From the IMG/VR virus record IMGVR_UViG_3300030019_000098, positions 1-35,268 of that record: 35,268 bases of DNA; one strand, written 5' to 3'. The position numbers and the translations under genes are program-made. How positions within the stretch are numbered: position 1 is the stretch's first letter; every line of letters starts with the position of its first letter. Below the pieces are notes generated by a model. That model did no database searches, was not told the DNA's origin, and worked only from the letters and a program-made list of their open reading frames with translations. Below, piece after piece: positions 20,034 through 33,583 of this stretch. The DNA is from a virus.

Positions 20034-20084
20034 CAAATTAATGTAAATTATAAATTAAAATATAATAATGAAGGAGATATGAAA

Positions 20085-21185
20085 ATGGAAAAAGTAATAA
20101 GAATTATAAATAAATTAGAAAGTACAAGTAGTTCAAATGATAAAATATCAATAATACAACAGAATAAAGATAATGAAGACTTTACTAAAATATTATATTA
20201 TACATACAATGATAGTCTTCAGTTTGGATTCAGCGAGAAGAAACTTAGAGAATTACTAAAGAGCTATTTAGAAAATTCAACATTCTATGTAGGACATTTA
20301 TGGATTAATGGATTTGAAATGCTTGATACACTTTCAAAATCAAATATCAATGATAGCCTACGAAAAGAAGTTTTAGAATTTTTATCAAATTGTGATTACG
20401 AAGAACAAGAACTATGGATTAAGGTACTTACCAAGGATTTAAGATGTAATATATCAGGGAAAAGCATAAATAAGGCTATCAAAGGATTAATACCAGAATT
20501 TAATATCCAACAAGCATATCCGATTCATAAATATCCATTAAAGAAAGGCACTTGGATTTGTTTAGAAGAAAAACTTAATGGTATAAATTGTTCATACGTA
20601 AATGGAATAATGTTAAGTAGGCAAGGTAAAGAGATATCAAACTTAGATCATATAATTAAACAATTAGAACAACTAAGTTTTGAAGGATACTATTTCAATG
20701 GAGAATTAGTTAGAAAGAATATAGACAATATTTCAAATGGTGAGAACTTTAGATTAACAACTTCAATCGTAAATTCAGATGTGGAAGATAAAACTATGAT
20801 AGATTTAATTGTATTTGATTTATTACCTATAGATGAATTCTTTGCAGGAAAAAGCAAATTGAAATATAAAGATAGGCTAAAACAATTAAGACAATTAAAA
20901 GCAGATGCAGTTGAAAAGGGACTAGCTAATTTGGATATACCAATTGTATATTATGAAGGAACAGACATATCTGTGGTAGATGAATATTTAGATTTAGCAA
21001 TATCACAAGATAAAGAAGGTTGTATGGCTATAAAGGATTGTGAATGGAAAAATAAACGTCACAATGGCATATTAAAGATTAAAAAGTTTATGACTGCTGA
21101 TTGTAAAATAATTAATTATGCAGAAGGAGAAGGAAAATATAAAGGAGTTTTAGGTTCTTTTATAATAGATTATAAAGGTAATTAA
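20085..21185 (+). CDS. ATP-dependent DNA ligase, cut short by an in-frame TAA
   Basis: Phage ATP-dependent ligases seal nicks through a lysine-AMP intermediate. The adenylation lysine is K163 in E-E-K-L-N-G; F-N-G-E-L-V, E-G-C-M-A-I-K and L-K-I-K-K-F fit motifs III, IV and V. An N-terminal helical domain of about 140 residues precedes them. The frame stops with TAA at 21183, just as the OB-fold begins (D-Y-K-G-N-stop); the same frame continues with the rest of the OB-fold to 21377. The 366-aa product lacks motif VI and is probably impaired in self-adenylation unless the stop is read through. AAGGAG is 8 bases before the chosen ATG; another ATG at 20079 is too close. Confidence 0.88.
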   Translation: MEKVIRIINKLESTSSSNDKISIIQQNKDNEDFTKILYYTYNDSLQFGFSEKKLRELLKSYLENSTFYVGHLWINGFEMLDTLSKSNINDSLRKEVLEFLSNCDYEEQELWIKVLTKDLRCNISGKSINKAIKGLIPEFNIQQAYPIHKYPLKKGTWICLEEKLNGINCSYVNGIMLSRQGKEISNLDHIIKQLEQLSFEGYYFNGELVRKNIDNISNGENFRLTTSIVNSDVEDKTMIDLIVFDLLPIDEFFAGKSKLKYKDRLKQLRQLKADAVEKGLANLDIPIVYYEGTDISVVDEYLDLAISQDKEGCMAIKDCEWKNKRHNGILKIKKFMTADCKIINYAEGEGKYKGVLGSFIIDYKGN

Positions 21186-21768: not shown

Positions 21769-21867
21769 ATGTATACATTATGCTTAATAAATGGTTATAA
21801 CTATCACTATTTTAATGACAAACTACTTAGCATAAGTAAAAATAATTGGGTACTTAATATATTATAA
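21769..21867 (+). CDS. Possible small peptide, 32 aa
   Basis: A strong AGGAGGGA site lies about 9 bases before ATG, and the frame gives 32 residues rich in Tyr and Asn (L-I-N-G-Y-N-Y-H-Y-F-N). The ribosome site is the main support; the peptide has no recognisable feature. Confidence 0.4.
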   Translation: MYTLCLINGYNYHYFNDKLLSISKNNWVLNIL

Positions 21868-22420: not shown

Positions 22421-22912
22421 ATGATAAGTAATTATGAAGTTCAATATATGAATATAGTTAAAAATATAATAGAATATGGATACTACGATAATAATAGAAC
22501 AGGTATGCCAACATATAAACTACCACATCAAATAATACAAGTGGATTTACAAAAGGAGTTTCCTATATTAAAAACTAAACAGGTGGCTTTTAAAACAGCT
22601 ACAAAAGAAATGTTATGGATATGGCAACAACAGTCAAATGATGTTACATTATTACAAAATCAAAATGTTCATATTTGGGATGAATGGGTTGATAAGAATA
22701 ATACTATAGGAAAAGCTTATGGGTATCAAATAGCAAAATATAAACAACTTGATAAACTTATTGAAACTTTAAAAACTAATCCACAAGATAGAAGAATGAT
22801 TATTTCTTTATGGAATATTGAAGATTTACCAGAAATGCAATTACAACCTTGTTGTTATCAAACTATTTGGGATGTGACAGATGGTAAACTGAATTGTATG
22901 CTTATACAACGT
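22421..22912 (+). CDS. thyA: Thymidylate synthase ThyA, exon 1
   Basis: ThyA methylates dUMP to dTMP using methylene-tetrahydrofolate. This exon gives residues 1-164: N-R-T-G near 25, [23 protein letters not shown] and the catalytic cysteine C144 in Q-P-C-C-Y-Q. It ends at Q-R, within the dUMP-binding Q-R-S-x-D motif; the following Ser and Asp are 1.2 kb away in exon 2, and the unspliced frame stops two codons later. GGAGAATG precedes the ATG. With exon 2 the enzyme is 293 aa, normal for the family. DHFR follows, completing the folate cycle. Confidence 0.95.
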
Positions 22913-24107
22913 TTGTAAAAGAGCGTCTTTAGGTAGTAATACCTATCGAAAACCCTGTTAAACGGGGAAACTCTTATATTTATAAGACAATCCCGTACTA
23001 AATATTATTATTTGTGTTATTAAAATAAAAAGGAGGTGAATAAATAATGATAGGAACGTATTTTATAAAAAATTTACTTAATAATAAATTTTATGTAGGT
23101 CATTCAGTTAATATAAATCAAAGATTTAATTCTCATAAGTCAGCACTAAGAAAAAATAAACATCATAATAAGCACTTGCAAAGAGCGTGGAATAAATATG
23201 GTGAAAATAATTTTGAATTTGAAATCTATAAAATTTGTAATACAGAAATTGAAAGTATAGAAATTGAACAATATTATATAGATAATTATAAAGATATGTT
23301 ATATAACATATCTAAAAAGGCTAAAGATGGTGGTGATTTGTTATCGTATCATCCCAATAAGAAACTAATTATAGAAAAAGGATTAGAAACTAGAAAAGAA
23401 AATATGTCTAAAATGTCAAAAGAAGAACTAAGCAATACATACGGAAGAAAAGGAGAAGATAATGGAATGTATGGCAGACATCATTCTGAAAAATCGAAAA
23501 ATAAAATTTCTCAAAAAAACACAGGTGCTTATCGAGACATAAAAGGAAAAACTTATTATGAGTTCTTTGGAGAAGAAAAGGCTGTCGAAATTAAAAATAA
23601 CTTATCTGATAAAGCAAAATTAAAAATTGGAGAATTAAATAGTTTTTATGGGAAACATCACTCTGAGGAATCGAAAAATAAAATTAGAGAAAAACAATTA
23701 GGAAAGAAACCTCCTAACATGAAAAAAGTAAAAATAGAAGAAGATGAATACGAAAGTCTAACCGAAGCTTCTAGACAACTAGGGGTGACACCTACAACAA
23801 TATTAAATAGAATAAAATCAAAAAACTTTCCTAATTATTATTACATATAAAAACACAAATAATAATTAAATGTCTAACGACTATCGAAAGCATGTTTGAT
23901 AAATATAAAAGGTTATTAAATAGAAGCGAGTAGAGTACCCCTCAAGTTATTGGAGGTTGCATAATGCAAGGTGACGGGAAAAGCAGGGAATCCTATCTGA
24001 AATACTAATAGGATTGTGATATAGTCTTTTCTATATAGTAATATATAGCAGTTTCAATTAATGGAGTTGAAACGGGTAAGGTTTAACGAACCTTATTGAA
24101 AATAGAG
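22913..24107 (+). ncRNA. Group I self-splicing intron in thyA
   Basis: The intron divides CGT from TCA in thyA. The 5' exon ends in T and the intron ends in G, as group I introns require. Structured blocks flank the endonuclease gene: a 5' part with paired GGGG/CCCC-type elements and A-A-T-C-C-C-G-T-A (22991-22999), and a 3' part with A-C-G-A-C-T-A-T-C-G-A-A-A-G and the partner G-A-T-A-T-A-G-T-C. Splicing restores an uninterrupted conserved protein motif. Borders are fixed by the protein frame and are firm to within a base or two. I have not folded the RNA, so the subgroup is open. Confidence 0.88.
23047..23850 (+). CDS. GIY-YIG homing endonuclease inside the thyA intron
   Basis: A 267-aa endonuclease of the SegA/I-TevI type. 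The catalytic domain has G-T-Y at 3-5, Y-V-G at 16-18, R26 and E74 (E-Q-Y-Y-I). Two NUMOD3 DNA-binding repeats follow (M-Y-G-R-H-H-S-E-K-S-K and F-Y-G-K-H-H-S-E-E-S-K), then a C-terminal helix-turn-helix (L-T-E-A-S-R-Q-L-G-V). It would cut intron-free thyA and copy the intron into it. A near-perfect AAGGAGGTGA site precedes the ATG, so it is probably translated well from unspliced or excised RNA. Confidence 0.93.
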   Translation: MIGTYFIKNLLNNKFYVGHSVNINQRFNSHKSALRKNKHHNKHLQRAWNKYGENNFEFEIYKICNTEIESIEIEQYYIDNYKDMLYNISKKAKDGGDLLSYHPNKKLIIEKGLETRKENMSKMSKEELSNTYGRKGEDNGMYGRHHSEKSKNKISQKNTGAYRDIKGKTYYEFFGEEKAVEIKNNLSDKAKLKIGELNSFYGKHHSEESKNKIREKQLGKKPPNMKKVKIEEDEYESLTEASRQLGVTPTTILNRIKSKNFPNYYYI

Positions 24108-24497
24108 TCAGGAGACATTCCATTGGGCGTTCCCTTTAATACAACGCAATATGCAGTTTTAACTCATATGATTGCACAAGCTACTGGATTACAAGTAGGG
24201 CAACTTACTCATATTATAAATAATGCTCATATCTATGAAAATCAAATTGAAGGCATGAGAGAACAATTAGAAAGATATGAGAGGTTACAAAGTTGTGTAT
24301 ATAATTATGATACTTATAATGAATATTATAAAGATATAACGCACGAAGAATATAGTAAATTACAAGATATTTATTCTATAACCCCTAAACTAAAATTAAA
24401 TCCTGACATAACTAATTTTTATGACTTCACCATAGACGGTATTGCTTTAGAAGATTATAAAAATATGGGAATTATTAAAATGAAAGTGAGTGTATAG
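24108..24497 (+). CDS. thyA: Thymidylate synthase ThyA, exon 2
   Basis: This exon supplies residues 165-293: [16 protein letters not shown], completing the dUMP-binding motif, then [11 protein letters not shown] and the C-terminal K-M-K-V-S-V typical of ThyA. The frame is open a few codons into the intron's end, but nothing there acts as a start. The stop precedes the DHFR start by one base. Confidence 0.95.
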
Positions 24498-25970: not shown

Positions 25971-26009
25971 AAAAAGAAGTGGCTTATAAATTTAAGTTGC
26001 TTCTTTTTA
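25971..26009 (+). terminator. Bidirectional rho-independent terminator
   Basis: AAAAAGAAGTGGCTTA pairs with TAAGTTGCTTCTTTTT through Watson-Crick and G-T pairs, with T-runs on both strands. It separates the rightward left arm from the leftward right arm. Confidence 0.8.
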
Positions 26010-26039
26010 TTTGAACTTTAATTTATTTTTAAATGTGTA

Positions 26040-26067
26040 TTGACTTTGATTGAAATAGTGATATAAT
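26040..26067 (+). promoter_or_regulatory. Strong promoter in the convergent boundary
   Basis: TTGACT, 16 bases, TATAAT. It points right, into a region whose next gene is on the opposite strand, so its product should be a short RNA. Confidence 0.6.
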
Positions 26068-26072
26068 TGTTT

Positions 26073-26140
26073 TATGGATATATTTTGTTTGTTATTATAT
26101 GTCCTAAAGGTGAGATTACTTGAGAAAGTAGTCTCTTTTT
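26073..26140 (+). ncRNA. Candidate small RNA of about 70 bases
   Basis: Bounded by the promoter ending at 26067 and a terminator: 10-bp stem GAGATTACTT/AAGTAGTCTC, GAGA loop, then TTTTT. The transcript ends where the opposite-strand XhlA-like gene stops, so it could overlap that mRNA's 3' end. An ATG lies at the expected first base, but there is no ribosome site. Confidence 0.45.
26112..26140 (+). terminator. Rho-independent terminator of the short transcript
   Basis: 10-bp stem with one G-T pair, a GAGA tetraloop and a T-run on the + strand only. Confidence 0.8.
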
Positions 26141-26507
26141 ATTTTAATCCAAGATATGTTAAAATTCCACCAACAATCATAGATGCTATAACCCAAAATT
26201 GTTTAGTATTATAAAATTTCATTTCATTATTTATTTTATTACTTTCAGTTTTTATTCTTTCTTCTTGAGATTCTTTTGCCTTAAAGTAATCAAACATTTC
26301 TTTGGTAAAGTTATTTAATGTATTTTGTTGTTTTTCAGACTGCTTCATTTGATCTTTTGACTGTTCTGCCATTAATAGTTTAATTTCTGCTTGAGAGCGT
26401 GAAATCCCAGCTAATTCTAACCTTTGTTCAACATCACTTTCCTCAAGTCTTCTTAGTCTTGCTTCATGGTCTGATAATTGTTTGTCTATGTAATTATTTT
26501 CGTCCAT
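26139..26507 (-). CDS. XhlA-like membrane-anchored coiled-coil protein
   Basis: A 122-aa protein with a charged coiled coil (residues 8-90, with Q-L-S-D-H-E-A-R-L-R-R-L-E-E) and one C-terminal membrane helix (W-V-I-A-S-M-I-V-G-G-I-L-T-Y-L-G). This is the layout of the XhlA/holin-associated family, in which the membrane segment helps host lysis together with a holin; no partner holin or endolysin is in this window. GAGGAGG lies upstream of the ATG. The family call rests on layout, not on a strong motif. Confidence 0.7.
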   Translation of the reverse strand: MDENNYIDKQLSDHEARLRRLEESDVEQRLELAGISRSQAEIKLLMAEQSKDQMKQSEKQQNTLNNFTKEMFDYFKAKESQEERIKTESNKINNEMKFYNTKQFWVIASMIVGGILTYLGLK

Positions 26508-26628
26508 ATATATTCCTCCTCAAAATTTTAATTTATTTATTCATTGTTAACACATTCCTTTTCTTTAAGATTAGTGAATTATAATATATTGATTTATATA
26601 AAGAGTATAATTATTTTTAATTTTGGTT

Positions 26629-26637
26629 ATTATAACA
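26629..26637 (-). promoter_or_regulatory. Extended -10 promoter for the XhlA-like gene
   Basis: On the - strand the sequence reads TGTTATAAT, an extended -10. No good -35 is seen. It lies about 120 bases before the start codon. Confidence 0.35.
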
Positions 26638-26737
26638 GAGTAGAATTGATTATTGATTTAGAGTGTTGTTCTTTGGTAATTGATTCTACAATATTTTAAC
26701 CTTTTATATTTTAAATTGATAGATAATAGATACTGAT

Positions 26738-26784
26738 AAAACCTAATCTTGTGGATTTTAATAGTTTCGATGAGGTTAGGTTTT
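26738..26784 (-). terminator. Terminator after the first recombinase
   Basis: AAAACCTAATCTT pairs with GAGGTTAGGTTTT (13 bp with G-T pairs). On the - strand T-rich sequence follows, so it ends the DUF1064-recombinase operon. The rest of the gap 26508-26845 holds nothing else I can support. Confidence 0.65.
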
Positions 26785-26845
26785 ATTGCTATTTGTTTTT
26801 TATTTTTGCTATTGTAATCATTTAAAAGAGTGGTTTTAAAAGGAG

Positions 26846-27814
26846 TTAAATATCAAACTTTAGCATTTCTTGTTTTAAAGATTCGGTATCTTCTTGCAAA
26901 TAAAAATCTTTTGTTACACCCGTTGATCTATGGGATAACGCCTTCGAGACTGCTTCTAGACTCATACCTGCTTTATATCTAAGGTCACTGCCACTATGTC
27001 TTAAATCATGCATGGATAATTCAGGTTCATTGATAATAGCCCCTATTTGTTTTATCCATGTACTTTTAAATTGTCCAACTGAAGCTTGTCTCCACCCATT
27101 ATAATTAGTAACAAATAAATGCTCACATTCAATTCCTTTTTCTTTTCTTTCATTCAACCATTGTTTAATTAATTCTATACATCTATCATTGAGATTGAAC
27201 GTAATAGAATATCCTTCTTTTTCGATTACATCTCTTATAACCCTATTTTCTAAGTCAATCTGGTCTAATCTAATAGTAGATATAGCATTAACTCTAGCCA
27301 TAGTAAATAACCCTAATTCAAATACTAATGTTAATTGAGTATTATTTCTTTCTTTTAATCCTTCTCTTATCGTTTCTACTTGTTCTTGTGTTAGAAATAC
27401 TCTTTTTATTTCATAAACTCCTTTTTGAGCTTTAGGTCTTTCTAATAAATCTACTACATTTTCTTTGATTTTTCTTTTCTTTTTATAATATAGATATAAT
27501 GATGAGATACTAGACAGTCTACGTTGCATACGTCTATCTTTATTTTCAAATACGCTTTGACATAGTGCAAGAAAATCTTCAACAACATCTGCCATTTCCT
27601 CAGTTTCAAAATCAAATATGTATTTATTATCATAATTTTTTAATATAAAAACAAAGAATTGGTTTATATCTGAAGTATATGAATTCTTAGAGGACTCAGC
27701 TAACTGTCTTTTCCCATTAAGATATTTCCTCCAAAGTTCTTTATTTTGTGGATTTATTTGTTCTATCAATTTTGGAGTTGTATATTGAACATGTTTTCTT
27801 TTTTCTTTTGCCAT
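26846..27814 (-). CDS. Tyrosine recombinase (integrase family)
   Basis: A 322-aa site-specific recombinase. The N-terminal half is a SAM-like core-binding domain. The catalytic set is R174 (T-M-A-R-V-N), H269-D-L-R272-H, H295 (A-L-S-H-R-S) and the nucleophile Y305 (D-F-Y-L-Q). The family joins and excises phage genomes at att sites or resolves multimers. It starts one base after the stop of the DUF1064 gene, so the two are coupled. It shares little with the other recombinase at 28464 beyond the catalytic residues. No att site is identified. Confidence 0.92.
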   Translation of the reverse strand: MAKEKRKHVQYTTPKLIEQINPQNKELWRKYLNGKRQLAESSKNSYTSDINQFFVFILKNYDNKYIFDFETEEMADVVEDFLALCQSVFENKDRRMQRRLSSISSLYLYYKKKRKIKENVVDLLERPKAQKGVYEIKRVFLTQEQVETIREGLKERNNTQLTLVFELGLFTMARVNAISTIRLDQIDLENRVIRDVIEKEGYSITFNLNDRCIELIKQWLNERKEKGIECEHLFVTNYNGWRQASVGQFKSTWIKQIGAIINEPELSMHDLRHSGSDLRYKAGMSLEAVSKALSHRSTGVTKDFYLQEDTESLKQEMLKFDI

Positions 27815-27815
27815 A

Positions 27816-28352
27816 TTATATCAAGTCCTTTCTTAATTGTTTTATTTTGTCTTTTTTTTTACTAACATTCTTATCTTTCTCAGCTTTTAATTTGTCCCTA
27901 ACTTCTTTCCTAGCTTTCTTTTCACTTTTCTTTTGTTTAACTAATTCAGTGTACTGTTTCTTTTCTATTTTATCTTCTAAGTTAAACCATCTGCTATCAT
28001 ATGTAACAATTAATTCAAAACGTGTATCTTGATTTAAGTATTTAAACATCTTTATCTTGCACTTACTTTCATTTGTAATATTATAAAGACTACCTTTTAC
28101 ATCAACAACGACTAGTTGACCATCTCTAATAAAGCTCATATCAGAAATATATTCCATTTTACGAATTCCTTTATTTTCGTAGTGGGAATCTTTAAAGGCT
28201 GGCACTAATAAGAAAGGTTTTTGTCTATCTAAATTGTTTATCTCTCCTTTCTCTTGTTGCTTTAATAGTTCATTCCAATATTTCCATTCTGTTGTGCTGT
28301 CGAAAATTCCCCATTTAGGATCATCAACTTTTTTACTTGAATATTTGCCCAT
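27816..28352 (-). CDS. DUF1064 nuclease-like phage protein
   Basis: DUF1064 proteins have a restriction-endonuclease-like fold and occur in phage recombination/replication regions. The 178-aa product shows the pattern: F-D-S-T-T-E-W-K-Y-W, D-R-Q-K-P-F, the metal-binding Y-I-S-D-M-S-F-I and V-V-V-D-V-K-G, ending in a long Lys-rich coiled tail (K-K-S-E-K-K-A-R-K-E). The start chosen has AGAAAGGA 8 bases upstream; a longer frame to 28418 runs through the terminator of the next gene. Coupling to a recombinase suggests a shared role in genome mobility or Holliday-junction processing; that is inference. Confidence 0.8.
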   Translation of the reverse strand: MGKYSSKKVDDPKWGIFDSTTEWKYWNELLKQQEKGEINNLDRQKPFLLVPAFKDSHYENKGIRKMEYISDMSFIRDGQLVVVDVKGSLYNITNESKCKIKMFKYLNQDTRFELIVTYDSRWFNLEDKIEKKQYTELVKQKKSEKKARKEVRDKLKAEKDKNVSKKKDKIKQLRKDLI

Positions 28353-28394
28353 ATCCCCATTCCTTTCTAATTCAATTTTTATAATTCCACGCAA

Positions 28395-28427
28395 CAAAAA
28401 AGAGCTTGTACAATTCATACAAACTCT
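28395..28427 (-). terminator. Terminator after the GGCC-rich recombinase
   Basis: On the - strand AGAGTTTGTA pairs with TACAAGCTCT (one mismatch), followed by TTTTTT. It insulates this gene from the DUF1064 operon. Confidence 0.75.
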
Positions 28428-28463
28428 AAAAATAATCTAATATTTAATTTTAATATCTTTGGC

Positions 28464-29288
28464 CTAATCCAAATCTTCTATAACATTTAATAATTCTTCT
28501 TTACTCTTTCTGGTATAAATCCGAGTTGTTTCAATACTACCATGGCCACATAAATCGGCTACAATATCAATGGCCAAACCAGAATCTATTAACCGTTTTG
28601 CATATTGATGGCGAAATGAATGTGCATGATTTTTCTCCTTTTTTACATTGGCCAACTTACCATATTTCTTTAAAACTTTATCTACACCACTTCTAGTCAT
28701 ATGGCCACGAGTTCCTACAAACAGGTAATCACAACCTTTATTCATTCGGCCCAATCTACAATAATTTAACCAAACATCATTCAAGGCCTTGGGAATAAAT
28801 ACAGATCTAATCTTATTTCCCTTGCCAACAATTTGTATTGTATTACTATGTATGTCTTTTATTTGAAGTTGTAGCATTTCACTTATTCTTAGGCCAGTCA
28901 ATTCCAATGTTTTTACTATGGCCAACGTTCTATAATCCTTCTTGGCCTTAGCAATATCAATTATATTTTCTATATCAGCCTTATTAATTACATTCTCTAA
29001 GAAATTCTGTGATTGTATTTTTACTTTTGTAGTTGTGGCCGACACTTCAATAAAAGCAAAGAATTGATGTATGGCCACAAGTTTTCTATTGGCCGAAGTA
29101 GGAGATAAGAATCTTTCATATAATAAATATTCTTTGTAGGCCTTCATTGTATCATTGTGAAATTCTAATATCTTATTTTCTTTTGCATAGGCCATGAATT
29201 GATTTATATCTCTCATATAGGCCTCAATAGTCTTATTACTTTTTTCTTGCTTGGCCAAGTATTCTCTAAACATTTGTAAATTATTCAT
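28464..29288 (-). CDS. XerC/D-like tyrosine recombinase with saturated GGCC sites
   Basis: A 274-aa recombinase of compact Xer type. Residues 1-90 are the core-binding domain. The catalytic residues are R134 (L-T-G-L-R-I-S-E), a Lys in the beta hairpin (G-K-G-N-K), H223-S-F-R226-H, H249 (L-C-G-H-G-S) and Y258 (R-I-Y-T-R). Xer-like enzymes resolve dimers, integrate phages or invert DNA segments. The coding sequence is remarkable: it holds 16 GGCC sites, with a seventeenth spanning the stop codon. 12 of the 14 Ala codons whose preceding codon could end in G form GGCC, as do 4 of 5 suitable Gly codons. GCC and TCG are chosen although rare around here. Its own promoter and terminator make it a one-gene unit. 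GGAGG precedes the ATG. Confidence 0.93.
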   Translation of the reverse strand: MNNLQMFREYLAKQEKSNKTIEAYMRDINQFMAYAKENKILEFHNDTMKAYKEYLLYERFLSPTSANRKLVAIHQFFAFIEVSATTTKVKIQSQNFLENVINKADIENIIDIAKAKKDYRTLAIVKTLELTGLRISEMLQLQIKDIHSNTIQIVGKGNKIRSVFIPKALNDVWLNYCRLGRMNKGCDYLFVGTRGHMTRSGVDKVLKKYGKLANVKKEKNHAHSFRHQYAKRLIDSGLAIDIVADLCGHGSIETTRIYTRKSKEELLNVIEDLD

Positions 29289-29308
29289 CTTTATATACCT
29301 CCATAACT

Positions 29309-29317
29309 ATTATACCA
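29309..29317 (-). promoter_or_regulatory. Extended -10 promoter of the GGCC-rich recombinase
   Basis: On the - strand TGGTATAAT lies 20 bases before the start codon, leaving a very short leader with GGAGG. No good -35 is seen. Confidence 0.55.
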
Positions 29318-29566
29318 TGTTTTGGACTGATAATCTTAGTTATGTATCGAATTTAAAACAAAAATCCTAATTCTTAATGTTGTGGCCAGTATAAATATGA
29401 AAGTATTATCATTAATTCTAATTCTATTACGCCAATATTTTTAGACTTTCTTTTACCTTTAATACAATTGAATTTAAATGGCATTCAAAAGCAGAGTTGC
29501 AAGTAGAATAACTTTTTCGATTTTATAAAAATGAATGGTTCTGTGGTGTTTATCAAAAATATATGT

Positions 29567-29572
29567 TATAAT
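29567..29572 (+). promoter_or_regulatory. Extended -10 promoter of the small + strand ORF
   Basis: TGTTATAAT (TG at 29564-29565 region, TATAAT at this site), about 37 bases before the ATG of the small membrane peptide. The -35 region is poor. Confidence 0.45.
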
Positions 29573-29608
29573 ATTATATTAACCACATAATCATCCTAAG
29601 GAGAAGCA

Positions 29609-29722
29609 ATGGAATATATATGTTTATCAATAAGTTGTTTGATTCTATTTATGCTAGGTCGTATAATTAATAAGTTACGGCATGTCAGCCGAAATATTGA
29701 TAATAAAATTTTCAATGATTAA
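29609..29722 (+). CDS. Tiny single-pass membrane peptide, 37 aa
   Basis: TAAGGAG lies 7-8 bases before the ATG, and an extended -10 promoter sits upstream. The peptide has one hydrophobic helix (I-C-L-S-I-S-C-L-I-L-F-M-L) followed by a basic, polar tail (R-I-I-N-K-L-R-H-V-S-R-N). It is alone on the + strand among leftward genes. The layout resembles type I toxin peptides and other small phage membrane proteins; no antitoxin RNA is evident, so I do not assign a toxin role. Confidence 0.5.
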   Translation: MEYICLSISCLILFMLGRIINKLRHVSRNIDNKIFND

Positions 29723-29744
29723 ATGAATCCAATTTACAAACACA

Positions 29745-29780
29745 AATAAGAGCAAGATTATAATATCTCTTGCCCTTATT
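29745..29780. terminator. Convergent terminator
   Basis: AATAAGAGCAAGA pairs with TCTTGCCCTTATT (one mismatch) between the small + strand ORF and the end of the - strand repeat protein. The T-runs are modest. The rest of the gap 29289-29794 is AT-rich, with no further gene seen. Confidence 0.5.
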
Positions 29781-29794
29781 ACATTAATTTATTA

Positions 29795-32700
29795 TTACAT
29801 TATAAACACATATCCAATAATTTTATTTCCAACAACTATCTTGCATTCTAAATCAGATAAACTTCCTAAAACTTCTATTTTAGAACTCAAATCATTATTA
29901 TAAGGAGTCCTAGTTATTATTTTACAACTTAATTCTGAAATATTTGATACTGAAATAATACCATTTAAATCATTAGTAGGAGTAATCTCTACTTTATTAT
30001 CTAAGTCATTGTATTCATTTCTTCTAACTTTAATCTTACAAGAAATATCTCCTTTAGCAACTCTAATTATACAATCTAAATTTTCTACTGATATAATATC
30101 AATTTTTGAATTTAAATCAATTTCTTTAGTATTCCTTATTTTAATTACTGAATTTAAATAAGATGGTTTAATAACATTAATCTTACTATCTAAATTATCA
30201 TTTGCTATTATATTGATTTTTGAATTAAGATCAATATCTGAATATCTTCTAACTTTAATAGTAGAACTTAAGTTTGCGTGATTGGTTACTTCTATTAATG
30301 AATCTAGATTATTATAAGTAGTTACTATGATTTTAGAATCTAATTCTGAATCCCAAGTGTTTCTTACTTTAATTATACAACCTATTAATTCATTTGTTAG
30401 AACATTGATTACACAATTTAAATCGCTACGTTGAGTTACACTTAATTTATTATTTAAATCTAAAACGTCATTTCTTCGTACTATAATACTTGAATATAAC
30501 TCACTTGTAGGTGTAACTTTAATTATACTAGCTATATCAGGATTATTTACTATGATTTTGCTATTAAGTTCTTTGTATTCATTTCTTCTTACTACAACTT
30601 TAGAGTCTAATGATAATATTTCATTTCTTCGGACAATTAAATTACTATCAATATTATCTATTTCATTACGTTTTACTGTTATGATAGAATTTATATACGG
30701 ATTATTTACAATAATTGTACTTGATAATTCATTTATTTCATTTAATCTAACTTTTAATAAGGAATCTAAATTATTTTCTTCATTCCTTTTTACAACTAGT
30801 TTACAATCTAAATCTCCACGAATAACAGTAATTTTAGAATCTAAGTATCCATTATTATTTACGACCAAAGATGAATCTAAATCGCTTTCTAAATTATAAT
30901 TAGGTACAGTAATTGAACAACTTAAATCTTTATTTTCAACACTCATTACGAATATTTTACTTAAAAAATCATTAGAAACATTACTCTTTACTGTAGTATC
31001 AAAATACTCTATTTCTAAGGTAGGTGGATAAACACTTTCCCTAGAATAAAGCCTTAGTCTTTGTTGAATTGACTCATCAAGTGATTTAATTATAAATCCA
31101 TTTTGTAGCATACTACCATTGAACCAATTATCAATTATATACATTAAGTCAATTTCTATAATACTTCCACTAACGCTAGAAACAGCTTTTATTGTACTTA
31201 AAGAATCTTCTTGATTATTCCAAGTTATATCATTTTCATACCAAGAATCTTTTACTTCATCTAATTGAATACCACTTGTATAATAAGACGTATTACTATG
31301 TAATTTTAAAATAGCCTTTGTAAATACCCTAGTTGTAGGTATCCCACTTAAATCAAACTGTAAGAATGAGCGATATAATTCTCCACTATTATTACCAACA
31401 TACATATCAATTTCGCTACCATAGTTGAATGTAGGTAATTGACTTCTGGTATAAGCATCTTGTACCGGCTTTAATGTCAAATTAACTTTAGGAGCTGGTA
31501 ATATATCTACAATACCAAACATTCTATTGGAAGGTCTAGTCTTGATTATAGAATTTAAATCCTCAGTACCTTCATTAATTACTAAGATAGTAGAATCTAA
31601 ATCATTAGTATCTGTAATGTATACAAACATCTTACTTGAGATATCGTTTTTACCATCGACAAATCTTACATGAATAGTTGAATTTAAATCAATATTTTCA
31701 TTTCTTCTGACTAATACATTTGAATTGATATCAGTTATATCATTTCTTCTAACTGTAATCTGTGAATCGAATTCATTGTTGTCATATCTTCTGACATTCA
31801 AGATACAATCTACTGTAGACATATCTCTTACTGTTATTTTAGTTGATAAATCTTTTGCAGAAGGTATTCTAACAGATATTTTAGAATTTAATTCTTTATA
31901 ATTGGTAACTTTTATTTTACTTAAGAATTCACTTGTTGGAGATATTTTTACTATTCCATTGAAATCATCATCTAAATATCTTCTTACTTTTATTATAGAA
32001 TCAACTTCGCCCTTACTAACTAAAATCTTACAACCCAATTCTTCAAATAATGAAATTAAAATTGTACTATCAATGCTACCATCGTCATATCTTCTTACAT
32101 TAATTATGGAATTTAAATCATTATCTTCAGACCTTCTAACTTTAATTGTAGAATCTAAGTCATTGGTAAACATAACTAAAATTTTACTATTTAATTCATT
32201 AATGTCGTATCTTCTGACTTTAATTATCGAACTTAACTCATTATAATTATACCTTCTAACTGTTATCTTTGATGATAATTCACTAAATCTTGTGGTAGAT
32301 ATTGTGCAATTCAGTTCACTTACATCTTTTCTTCGTACTATTATTTTAGAGTTTAAATCTTTATATTCATTACGTCTTACTGCAAGTTTACTAACTAAGT
32401 CTAAAATATTAGTAACTTTAATATTTGAATTTAGTTCACTAATATCATATCTTCTAACTTTCACCTTACAATCTAAATCCTTAATTTGTGTAACATTTAT
32501 AATACAAGGCATTTGATAATTATTAACTACAGTTATTTTACAACTAATATTAGGTTGGGATACTGCAACTTGTGAATTGAAATCTCTAGCAGTATTTATT
32601 TTAACTTTTATTATAGAATTTAAATTAACTCCTGTTGCAACATTGATTTTACTATTTAATGCGTCTGTTAATACTTGTAATTTACAATCTAAATAACTAT

Positions 32701-33583
32701 TATTTCTAACTGTTATTGTACTATCTAAATCATTATTAAAATCATATTCAGGAACTATTATAGTACAATTTAATTCATTTTTTGCAGGTATTTTTACACT
32801 TATTTTACTATTTAATATTGCTGACCCATAGCTAGGAGGATTAGGGTTAAAATACTCAACTTCCAATATAGGAGTAAAACTTGATTCTCTTGAATAAGTT
32901 CTACCATATTGATTATAAGTTTCGTCTGAAGATTTAAAAACAAATCCTGTTTGGAATCTATTTCCTTCGTACCAATCAATAATACTATTTGTAACATCAC
33001 AATATATATATTTCTGACCTAGTGAAGTTCCACCTTGGAATGTTTCAAGTAGAGTTCCCATTGGAGGTTGGTTATCCCATGTAATATCATTTTCATCAAA
33101 ACTATTTAAACATTCGTATACTTCTAAGTTAGGAATAAAATTATCAGTACTTATCCTAGTTGCTTTTATTGTTGCTTTTGTTATTATTAAACCTTTTTGT
33201 AATCGAAGTAAATTAAAGTCCATGAATGTTCTAAATATTCCATCAAAAGAAGATGAATAACCAACTAATAAATCTTTTTCTTTTCCGTAATTTAGAACTG
33301 GTTGGTCTGATCTCACGAATGCATCTTTTAAGCAAGGTATAATTTGAGTTATTTTTTGTGTTTTGACTATATCTACAGTACCAAACATTTTGTTCTTTAT
33401 TGGAATAGTTAAGGTACTTGATAATGAAACATTTTCGTCTTGTACTGATTCATCATTATATCTAACTGTAATTGTACTATTTAAATTATTGACAGAATCT
33501 ATATCAATTTTTGCATAAGCTTCATTTTGAACATTACTTCTATTAATTATTATATATGAATTTAAGTCGTTATCATATTGCAT
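29795..33583 (-). CDS. Large repeat protein with two DNRLRE domains, probable virion fibre/adhesin
   Basis: The 1262-aa protein is two copies of one module: a lead M-F-G-x-V-D-I (residues 66 and about 688), a DNRLRE domain of about 165 residues (D-A-F-V-R-S/D-A-Y-T-R-S at the start, N-D-I-T-W, G-F-V-F-K-S and L-E-V-E-Y-F at the end), then many 12-14-residue repeats of the form L-N-S-K-I-x-V-R-R-x-x-x-x-E. The alternating hydrophobics suggest stacked beta strands, as in solenoid fibres. DNRLRE domains occur in cell-surface and phage structural proteins. No signal peptide is present, which fits a virion part. It lies 55 bases downstream of another fibre-like gene. Open + strand frames across it are repeat shadows. 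Confidence 0.85.
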   Translation of the reverse strand: MQYDNDLNSYIIINRSNVQNEAYAKIDIDSVNNLNSTITVRYNDESVQDENVSLSSTLTIPIKNKMFGTVDIVKTQKITQIIPCLKDAFVRSDQPVLNYGKEKDLLVGYSSSFDGIFRTFMDFNLLRLQKGLIITKATIKATRISTDNFIPNLEVYECLNSFDENDITWDNQPPMGTLLETFQGGTSLGQKYIYCDVTNSIIDWYEGNRFQTGFVFKSSDETYNQYGRTYSRESSFTPILEVEYFNPNPPSYGSAILNSKISVKIPAKNELNCTIIVPEYDFNNDLDSTITVRNNSYLDCKLQVLTDALNSKINVATGVNLNSIIKVKINTARDFNSQVAVSQPNISCKITVVNNYQMPCIINVTQIKDLDCKVKVRRYDISELNSNIKVTNILDLVSKLAVRRNEYKDLNSKIIVRRKDVSELNCTISTTRFSELSSKITVRRYNYNELSSIIKVRRYDINELNSKILVMFTNDLDSTIKVRRSEDNDLNSIINVRRYDDGSIDSTILISLFEELGCKILVSKGEVDSIIKVRRYLDDDFNGIVKISPTSEFLSKIKVTNYKELNSKISVRIPSAKDLSTKITVRDMSTVDCILNVRRYDNNEFDSQITVRRNDITDINSNVLVRRNENIDLNSTIHVRFVDGKNDISSKMFVYITDTNDLDSTILVINEGTEDLNSIIKTRPSNRMFGIVDILPAPKVNLTLKPVQDAYTRSQLPTFNYGSEIDMYVGNNSGELYRSFLQFDLSGIPTTRVFTKAILKLHSNTSYYTSGIQLDEVKDSWYENDITWNNQEDSLSTIKAVSSVSGSIIEIDLMYIIDNWFNGSMLQNGFIIKSLDESIQQRLRLYSRESVYPPTLEIEYFDTTVKSNVSNDFLSKIFVMSVENKDLSCSITVPNYNLESDLDSSLVVNNNGYLDSKITVIRGDLDCKLVVKRNEENNLDSLLKVRLNEINELSSTIIVNNPYINSIITVKRNEIDNIDSNLIVRRNEILSLDSKVVVRRNEYKELNSKIIVNNPDIASIIKVTPTSELYSSIIVRRNDVLDLNNKLSVTQRSDLNCVINVLTNELIGCIIKVRNTWDSELDSKIIVTTYNNLDSLIEVTNHANLSSTIKVRRYSDIDLNSKINIIANDNLDSKINVIKPSYLNSVIKIRNTKEIDLNSKIDIISVENLDCIIRVAKGDISCKIKVRRNEYNDLDNKVEITPTNDLNGIISVSNISELSCKIITRTPYNNDLSSKIEVLGSLSDLECKIVVGNKIIGYVFIM

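Follow-up and report, generated by a model that had tools for sequence, protein, structure and literature searches.

A phage tyrosine recombinase gene saturated with GGCC, a word almost absent from the rest of the genome

Introduction

Phages lose restriction sites. In Escherichia coli, clusters of GATC at oriC are read by Dam and SeqA, and the P1 pac site, which lies within a gene, contains clustered Dam sites. At the RNA level, the Staphylococcus aureus sraP gene is enriched in UACAU, the site of the endoribonuclease MazF. Restriction-site avoidance has been described in phages and bacteria (PMC4687349), and the highly iterated palindromes of cyanobacteria are over-represented in the genome and have been tied to methyltransferases (PMC4390886).

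Here we analyze a stretch of viral DNA of 35,268 bases with a GC content of 26.7% (the window), for which the original prediction, made from the sequence alone, proposed that one tyrosine recombinase gene is under selection to carry sites for a GGCC-recognizing activity.

Results

GGCC sites are confined to one recombinase gene and its edges

All 18 GGCC sites of the window fall within 927 bases (28461–29387, no strand assigned), while the remaining 34,341 bases contain none; for the window outside the cluster, a Markov estimate gives 9.7. The recount reproduces the 18 sites in 927 bases of the original prediction, in which the absence from the rest of the window was not mentioned. The first bases of the sites on the plus strand are at positions 28461, 28544, 28572, 28650, 28703, 28748, 28785, 28892, 28920, 28944, 29037, 29073, 29091, 29139, 29190, 29220, 29253 and 29384. 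Spacing is irregular (18–131 bp) and clear helical phasing is absent.

The recombinase gene (28464–29288, minus strand) realizes 16 of the 19 GGCC that synonymous codon choice permits, 19 being the reachable maximum. The codon-level regularities described earlier hold in detail: 12 of the 14 alanine codons whose preceding residue allows GGCC form it, the exceptions being K103-A104 (AAG GCT) and V243-A244 (GTA GCC); four of the five suitable Gly-X pairs do so (the exception is G237-L238); and the five alanines at GGCC-incompatible positions carry GCA or GCT. The sites occupy two reading frames, 12 as NNG-GCC and four as GGC-CNN.

Synonymous shuffling had been proposed as a check. Permuting the gene's own synonymous codons yielded a mean of 4.7 and a maximum of 12 sites in 20,000 permutations, far below the observed 16, and drawing codons from phage usage yielded a mean of 0.32 and a maximum of four in 20,000. 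Compared with 11 other ORFs of the window, GGCC is the most over-realized of 243 tetramers with at least eight synonymous chances each (16/19 in the gene against 0/155 in those ORFs); the tetramers that follow, GCCA, GCCT and TGGC, each overlap it. Among all 4–6-mers of the 130-kb contig G002, which contains the window, GGCC and its extension GGCCA form the strongest clusters. The gene sequence is identical in the window, G001 and G002, the latter two being separately named metagenome contigs, and is therefore not a single-assembly error. The saturation is real and extreme.

Several trivial causes were considered and rejected. A motif longer than GGCC is not apparent, the site flanks being mostly A/T without a common consensus. 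Chance and codon bias are rejected by both codon nulls and the tetramer comparison, and high local GC by the 25.8% GC of the gene outside the sites. An origin in codon pairs, tRNA or the protein does not accommodate the use of two frames together with sites outside coding DNA. That the signal acts on DNA, as the original prediction held, is supported because two reading frames are used, one site lies across the stop codon and another lies upstream of the likely promoter.

Edges of the saturated region

A likely −10 box (TATAAT, 29309–29314, minus strand) was placed by eye upstream of the gene and has a similar counterpart ahead of the homologue on contig L003 (see below). It was left unlisted by a consensus promoter scan, in which promoter-like sites numbered 18, compared with 26.8 in shuffled sequence. 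Around the box lies an inverted repeat, ATAACTA...TAGTTAT (29303–29343, minus strand), a possible operator or recombinase site of which L003 has a visible, imperfect counterpart. About 70 bp upstream of the box is the GGCC at 29384–29387 (no strand), the sole GGCC of the 506-base intergenic region (29289–29794). At the other end, a GGCC crosses the stop codon (28461–28464), its first G in gene orientation being the last base of TAG. The downstream edge is marked by a terminator-like hairpin followed by a T-run (28401–28427, minus strand); similar sequence also follows the stop codon of the L003 homologue. Terminator-like sites in 26000–29900 number two against 1.0 ± 1.2 in shuffled sequence, a count that is weak by itself.

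The neighboring genes, all on the minus strand, contain no GGCC. None of four possible sites is realized in the next gene downstream, a DUF1064 gene (27816–28418, 200 aa), none of 15 in a second tyrosine recombinase gene (26846–27814, 322 aa) and none of 18 in the repeat-rich upstream gene (29795–33583, 1,262 aa). The GGCC run ends with the likely transcription unit of the recombinase gene. The 1,262-aa protein is made up of many short diverged repeats, with DNA repeats of 20–79 nt.

The recombinase

The 274-aa product matches PF00589 (110.4 bits, cut-off 27.1) and has a SAM-like N-terminal domain. Residues R134, K156, H223, R226, H249 and Y258 align with XerA/XerD; with the catalytic residues of XerD taken by us as the reference for the R-K-H-R-H-Y assignment, the alignment indicates that the catalytic residues are retained. 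The NCBIfam equivalog models for XerA (165.8 bits, cut-off 220), XerD (152.4, cut-off 329.6) and XerC (151.9, cut-off 335.15) all score below their cut-offs, and by these models the protein is not a true XerC, XerD or XerA. Outside GGCC codons, third-position GC is 19%, compared with 16% (sd 3%) for the ORFs of G002. The composition outside the sites, together with a gene order and flanking signals like those of L003, speaks against a foreign gene.

GGCC in the rest of the phage genome

The window corresponds, without differences, to positions 21819–57086 of G002 (130,085 bases), and G001 (62,979 bases) is identical over its full length. G002 contains 19 GGCC, of which 18 are in the recombinase unit, leaving one outside where composition gives 44.8 for the contig. 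This sole outsider, at 93579, lies inside a 1,911-aa ORF whose product resembles a tape-measure protein. Another contig, G007 (111,869 bases), ends in 22,116 bases that are identical to the end of G002, and its 89,753 further bases are free of GGCC (none in the whole contig, 31.3 expected). G002 and G007 likely represent one phage of about 220 kb, hereafter phage A; the join is likely rather than proven because these phages swap long near-identical segments, such as 7,265 bases at 99.97% identity between G014 and G007.

Across the other ORFs of phage A (a non-overlapping set of at least 100 aa, taken from G002 and from the part of G007 not shared with it, minus the recombinase gene), one of 1,602 possible GGCC is realized. 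The recombinase is also rich in possible sites. Scaled to 274 aa, the mean for ORFs encoding 200 aa or more is 8.9 (sd 4.6, maximum 26.5) in G002 and 7.3 in G007, and two of 67 such ORFs in G002 reach 19, the recombinase gene presumably being one of them.

Other words are scarce as well. G002 contains no GCGC, one CGCG and three CCGG, compared with 20, 10 and 25 expected, as well as six CCGC and 89 GATC, compared with 29 and 305. The same five words are strongly depleted in the window.

Related contigs and the GGCC-free homologue

Phage B (G004, 218,173 bases), which shares 75–84% DNA identity with phage A over likely structural genes, contains no GGCC (60.8 expected) and, of 1,500 possible sites, realizes none. 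Its best match to the recombinase gene, at 29% identity, is not a close homologue. GGCC is likewise absent from G003, G005, G006, G009, G010, G012, G014, G015 and G021, several of which overlap each other, and occurs once each in G008, which overlaps G002, and G013. Contigs whose only link is a single shared gene do not all avoid the word: G011 contains 61 (74.8 expected), G020 18 (11.3), G016 six (29.6), L036–L039 13–17 (20–25) and L107 81 (75.7). When 13 other contigs and G003 were scanned for clustered 4–6-mers, no GGCC cluster of this kind emerged; the strongest other clusters are TATA repeats (G004, G005) and, in G020, a GC-rich patch with seven GGCC in 600 bases.

In viral scans seeded by exact short peptides, which may miss further relatives, the sole other close relative of the recombinase is encoded by L003, a contig of 15,974 bases (68% identity). 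Bacterial homologues (10 loci, at most 30% identity) were left out of the comparison. Gene order is the same in L003: recombinase 1, recombinase 2 and a small gene. Its homologue has no GGCC and nine possible sites, compared with 19 in phage A, so that the enrichment, whose presence in homologues had been proposed as a check, is not common to both. Because the syntenic homologue lacks GGCC and offers only nine possible sites, the saturation is, on the sequences compared, lineage-specific. Of the two findings that the original prediction had named together as speaking against it, a homologue without the enrichment thus exists, but the native look of the gene speaks against recent acquisition. 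A loss of GGCC in the L003 lineage is possible from this one homologue, and the saturation itself is left unexplained by such a loss.

Within the 16 GGCC tetramers of the gene, 39 of 64 bases differ from L003 (2.4 per site), compared with 211 of the gene's other 761 bases. At the 12 alanine positions that form GGCC, L003 has alanine five times and otherwise I, D, E, V, N, V and K; at the seven other alanine positions it has alanine three times. This alanine comparison is not decisive. The 19 possible sites, set beside nine in L003 and a mean of 8.9 in G002, hint that amino acids, too, have shifted toward more possible GGCC sites; the argument is weak, given that two of 67 G002 ORFs reach 19, that the highest value is 26.5 and that L003 retains alanine about equally often at both kinds of position.

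Methyltransferases and nucleases

The original prediction had also suggested a search for a GGCC methyltransferase or nuclease, which gave no support for either in the phage records. PF00145 has no match in G000–G003. Three tandem C5-methyltransferases are encoded in G007 (locus L069, 4318–7176), so that phage A, if the join is right, probably encodes three; G004 has one. A HaeIII-type nuclease (PF09556) was found in none of three phage records (G002, G007 and G004). For comparison, we used C5-methylases encoded beside HaeIII-family nucleases; the nuclease occurred in four of 398 genomes, and BLAST recovered a methylase at three of the four loci, L129 being the locus without one. The recognition motif common to these HaeIII-neighbor methylases is in none of the three methylases of phage A. 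The recognition region of the middle one recurs in a methylase of L161 and of L162, and both of these adjoin a second C5-methylase. We take such tandem pairing to indicate an asymmetric recognition site. GGCC specificity of the middle methylase is unlikely because its relatives are paired in this way, and on these two grounds a phage-encoded GGCC methylase is not supported.

The three methyltransferase genes stand next to genes for a 552-aa tyrosine recombinase and a DUF6262 protein (L069, 1610–7176), which we take to be a Tn554-like pair. The 7,265-base near-identical stretch in G014 includes the methylases, which suggests that this segment was recently transferred. L107, which carries a methylase of 40% identity, lacks CCGG over 20.8 kb (49% GC), where composition predicts about 76, with GGCC at expectation.

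GGCC patches in other virus contigs

Eight stretches matched a search pattern describing a recombinase with GGCC at two of its motifs. L181 and L182 are phage A itself; L177 and L178 have 62–69% GC, L183 and L184 48–53% GC, and L179 and L180, which have two ORFs in common, about 44% GC. The L179/L180 patch comprises 18 GGCC in 1 kb near an integrase-like ORF (a label given by eye) and takes in small genes as well as palindromes in non-coding DNA, among them GTGGCCAC; it was rejected as a second saturated gene, since it spans small genes and non-coding DNA. L179 as a whole has 61 GGCC, compared with 25 expected, patchily distributed along the contig. In L179 (7600–8940) and L180, GTGGCCAC and TGGCCA repeats occupy non-coding DNA before the integrase-like ORF, beside a tRNA-like sequence (again labeled by eye), and the small genes are rich in GGCC. 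The patch is perhaps a combination of integrase arm sites and host codon habit, and a common cause of GGCC clusters near integrases is possible. In L184, positions 1–2000 contain 28 GGCC at 53% GC (about 10 expected), away from the pattern match and falling to background level beyond.

Other features of phage A

An insert encoding an I-TevI-like GIY-YIG endonuclease interrupts the thymidylate synthase gene of the window (22421–24497) at profile position 168/169. A like arrangement, a split thymidylate synthase with I-TevI, is that of the T4 td intron; the insert has no Rfam match at the gathering threshold. Elsewhere in phage A (L012, 970–2220) is a gene for a protein with RRXRR and HNH domains, presumably IscB-like.

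Discussion

The reading that we favor, with a probability of roughly 35%, is that the recombinase unit carries a read-out of methylation or occupancy that depends on the number of sites. A GGCC-recognizing activity on double-stranded DNA, most likely of the bacterial host, would act on this phage family, whose members would escape it by keeping GGCC out of their genomes. Phage A would redirect the same activity onto its own recombinase transcription unit; absence elsewhere combined with the cluster points to an activity aimed at one unit. Under selection, the gene would have gained nearly all GGCC that the protein permits, with one more upstream and one across the stop codon. Many sites would make a strong and graded target, whose state could be read out as recombinase expression. 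The state might be that of methylation, for example fully methylated incoming DNA versus newly replicated DNA; alternatively, a GGCC-binding protein might occupy the unit and block transcription. The reader is probably host-encoded because phage B keeps its genome free of GGCC yet lacks the target gene. We rank methylation or occupancy above cutting because a single site suffices for cutting, and a benefit that rises with site number would suit additive binding or methylation better. Plain restriction predicts loss of the word everywhere and relaxed restriction its return everywhere; a number-dependent reading predicts the pattern observed. Against the favored reading, a normal host restriction system should make 18 unmodified sites lethal, the irregular spacing without helical phasing speaks against cooperative binding, and the L179/L180 patch could mean that integrase sites or host composition explain such clusters. 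The stronger form, a number-coded switch within coding DNA, in which a host GGCC system sets the state of the recombinase gene, and selection for site number has reshaped its sequence, and perhaps part of the protein, to the coding limit, is more tentative, and we consider it rather doubtful.

Cutting would nevertheless make sense if the gene acted as a fuse, a possibility that the original prediction also named. A GGCC-restricting host would then cut only the recombinase gene, many sites making the cut fast, and ligase or recombination would rejoin the genome without the gene, or the cut would decide the life style. The unit is the phage's only dense GGCC locus, the window encodes a likely DNA ligase (20079–21185; PF04675, E 2.3e-6), and the gene may be dispensable, phage B having no homologue closer than 29% identity. 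A cut genome, however, is normally dead, so that the sites should have been purged here as elsewhere, and one site would be enough without saturation; we regard the fuse as unlikely, if the least so among the alternatives. Next comes a recent swap of the allele from an unsampled GGCC-dense relative, comparable to the cyanobacteria with iterated palindromes, with site loss not yet begun. The lack of saturation in the sole close relative found, L003, and the segment exchange among these phages (99.97% over 7,265 bases, G014/G007) fit this idea, which is nonetheless also unlikely: the GC content outside the sites (25.8%) and third-position GC (19% versus 16%, sd 3%) are ordinary for the phage, gene order and flanking signals resemble those of L003, the edges match one gene, and no GGCC-dense, AT-rich donor was among the contigs seen.

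The sites might alternatively form a locus for packaging, initiation, partition or recombination, bound by a phage protein and lying in a gene by chance, as pac of P1 does. Such a protein would have to act at a single place, which would account for the lack of GGCC in the rest of the genome. This would agree with a single dense GGCC locus in about 220 kb, and in L179/L180 palindromes containing GGCC recur outside coding sequence, next to an integrase-like gene, but phage B, with similar structural genes, has no GGCC and no such locus, and the sites, irregularly spaced, track one gene and its codons, which makes this reading quite improbable. Still less probable is an action on RNA, where GGCC as an endoribonuclease site would make the recombinase message specially sensitive, as UACAU does for MazF. 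Genes rich in MazF sites are a precedent, and 17 of the 18 sites are on the likely transcript; the remaining one lies upstream of the likely promoter, and GGCC is depleted alongside GCGC, CGCG, CCGG and GATC, the pattern usually left by restriction enzymes. Lowest in our ranking is the introduction of GGCC at this locus by mutation or repair, without selection. It would suit the 2.4 bases by which each site differs on average from L003 and a count near the maximum, but the catalytic residues are kept, and we know of no process that writes one tetramer at one gene with sharp edges.

A site lost almost everywhere and yet packed into one gene would imply that a short word can be selectable at a single locus, where it perhaps shapes the protein as well. 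If the favored reading of methylation or occupancy is right, the unit would constitute a gene-wide epigenetic switch in a phage, and the natural fragment and its natural GGCC-free homologue exist as a pair with which such a switch can be tested. The pattern also offers a new search principle, namely to look for genes saturated with a word otherwise avoided by their genome.

The recombinase itself has the family match and the catalytic residues in common with XerA, XerC and XerD, without reaching their equivalog cut-offs. As in genes rich in MazF sites, one gene has an unusual number of sites for a sequence-specific enzyme; there, however, the target is RNA and the word non-palindromic, and the remainder of the genome is not known to be nearly free of it. 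With oriC/SeqA and P1 pac the locus shares a dense local cluster of a short palindrome (18 in 927 bases), usable as a sensor of methylation state. It differs from them in that no cognate methylase or reader was found in phage A, and in that a whole coding unit is filled to near the protein's limit with a word almost absent elsewhere.

The literature searched on over-represented GGCC or other palindromes in phages, iterated GGCC palindromes and methylation-controlled integrase genes contained no precedent. In cyanobacterial iterated palindromes, over-representation is genome-wide (PMC4390886), whereas in phage A GGCC is confined to one unit, with a single site outside it. Restriction-site avoidance (PMC4687349) matches the depletion of GGCC relative to composition and Markov expectation in the rest of phage A and its absence from the nearest relatives, together with the low counts of GCGC, CGCG, CCGG and GATC; it does not predict a gene packed with the very word that is avoided.
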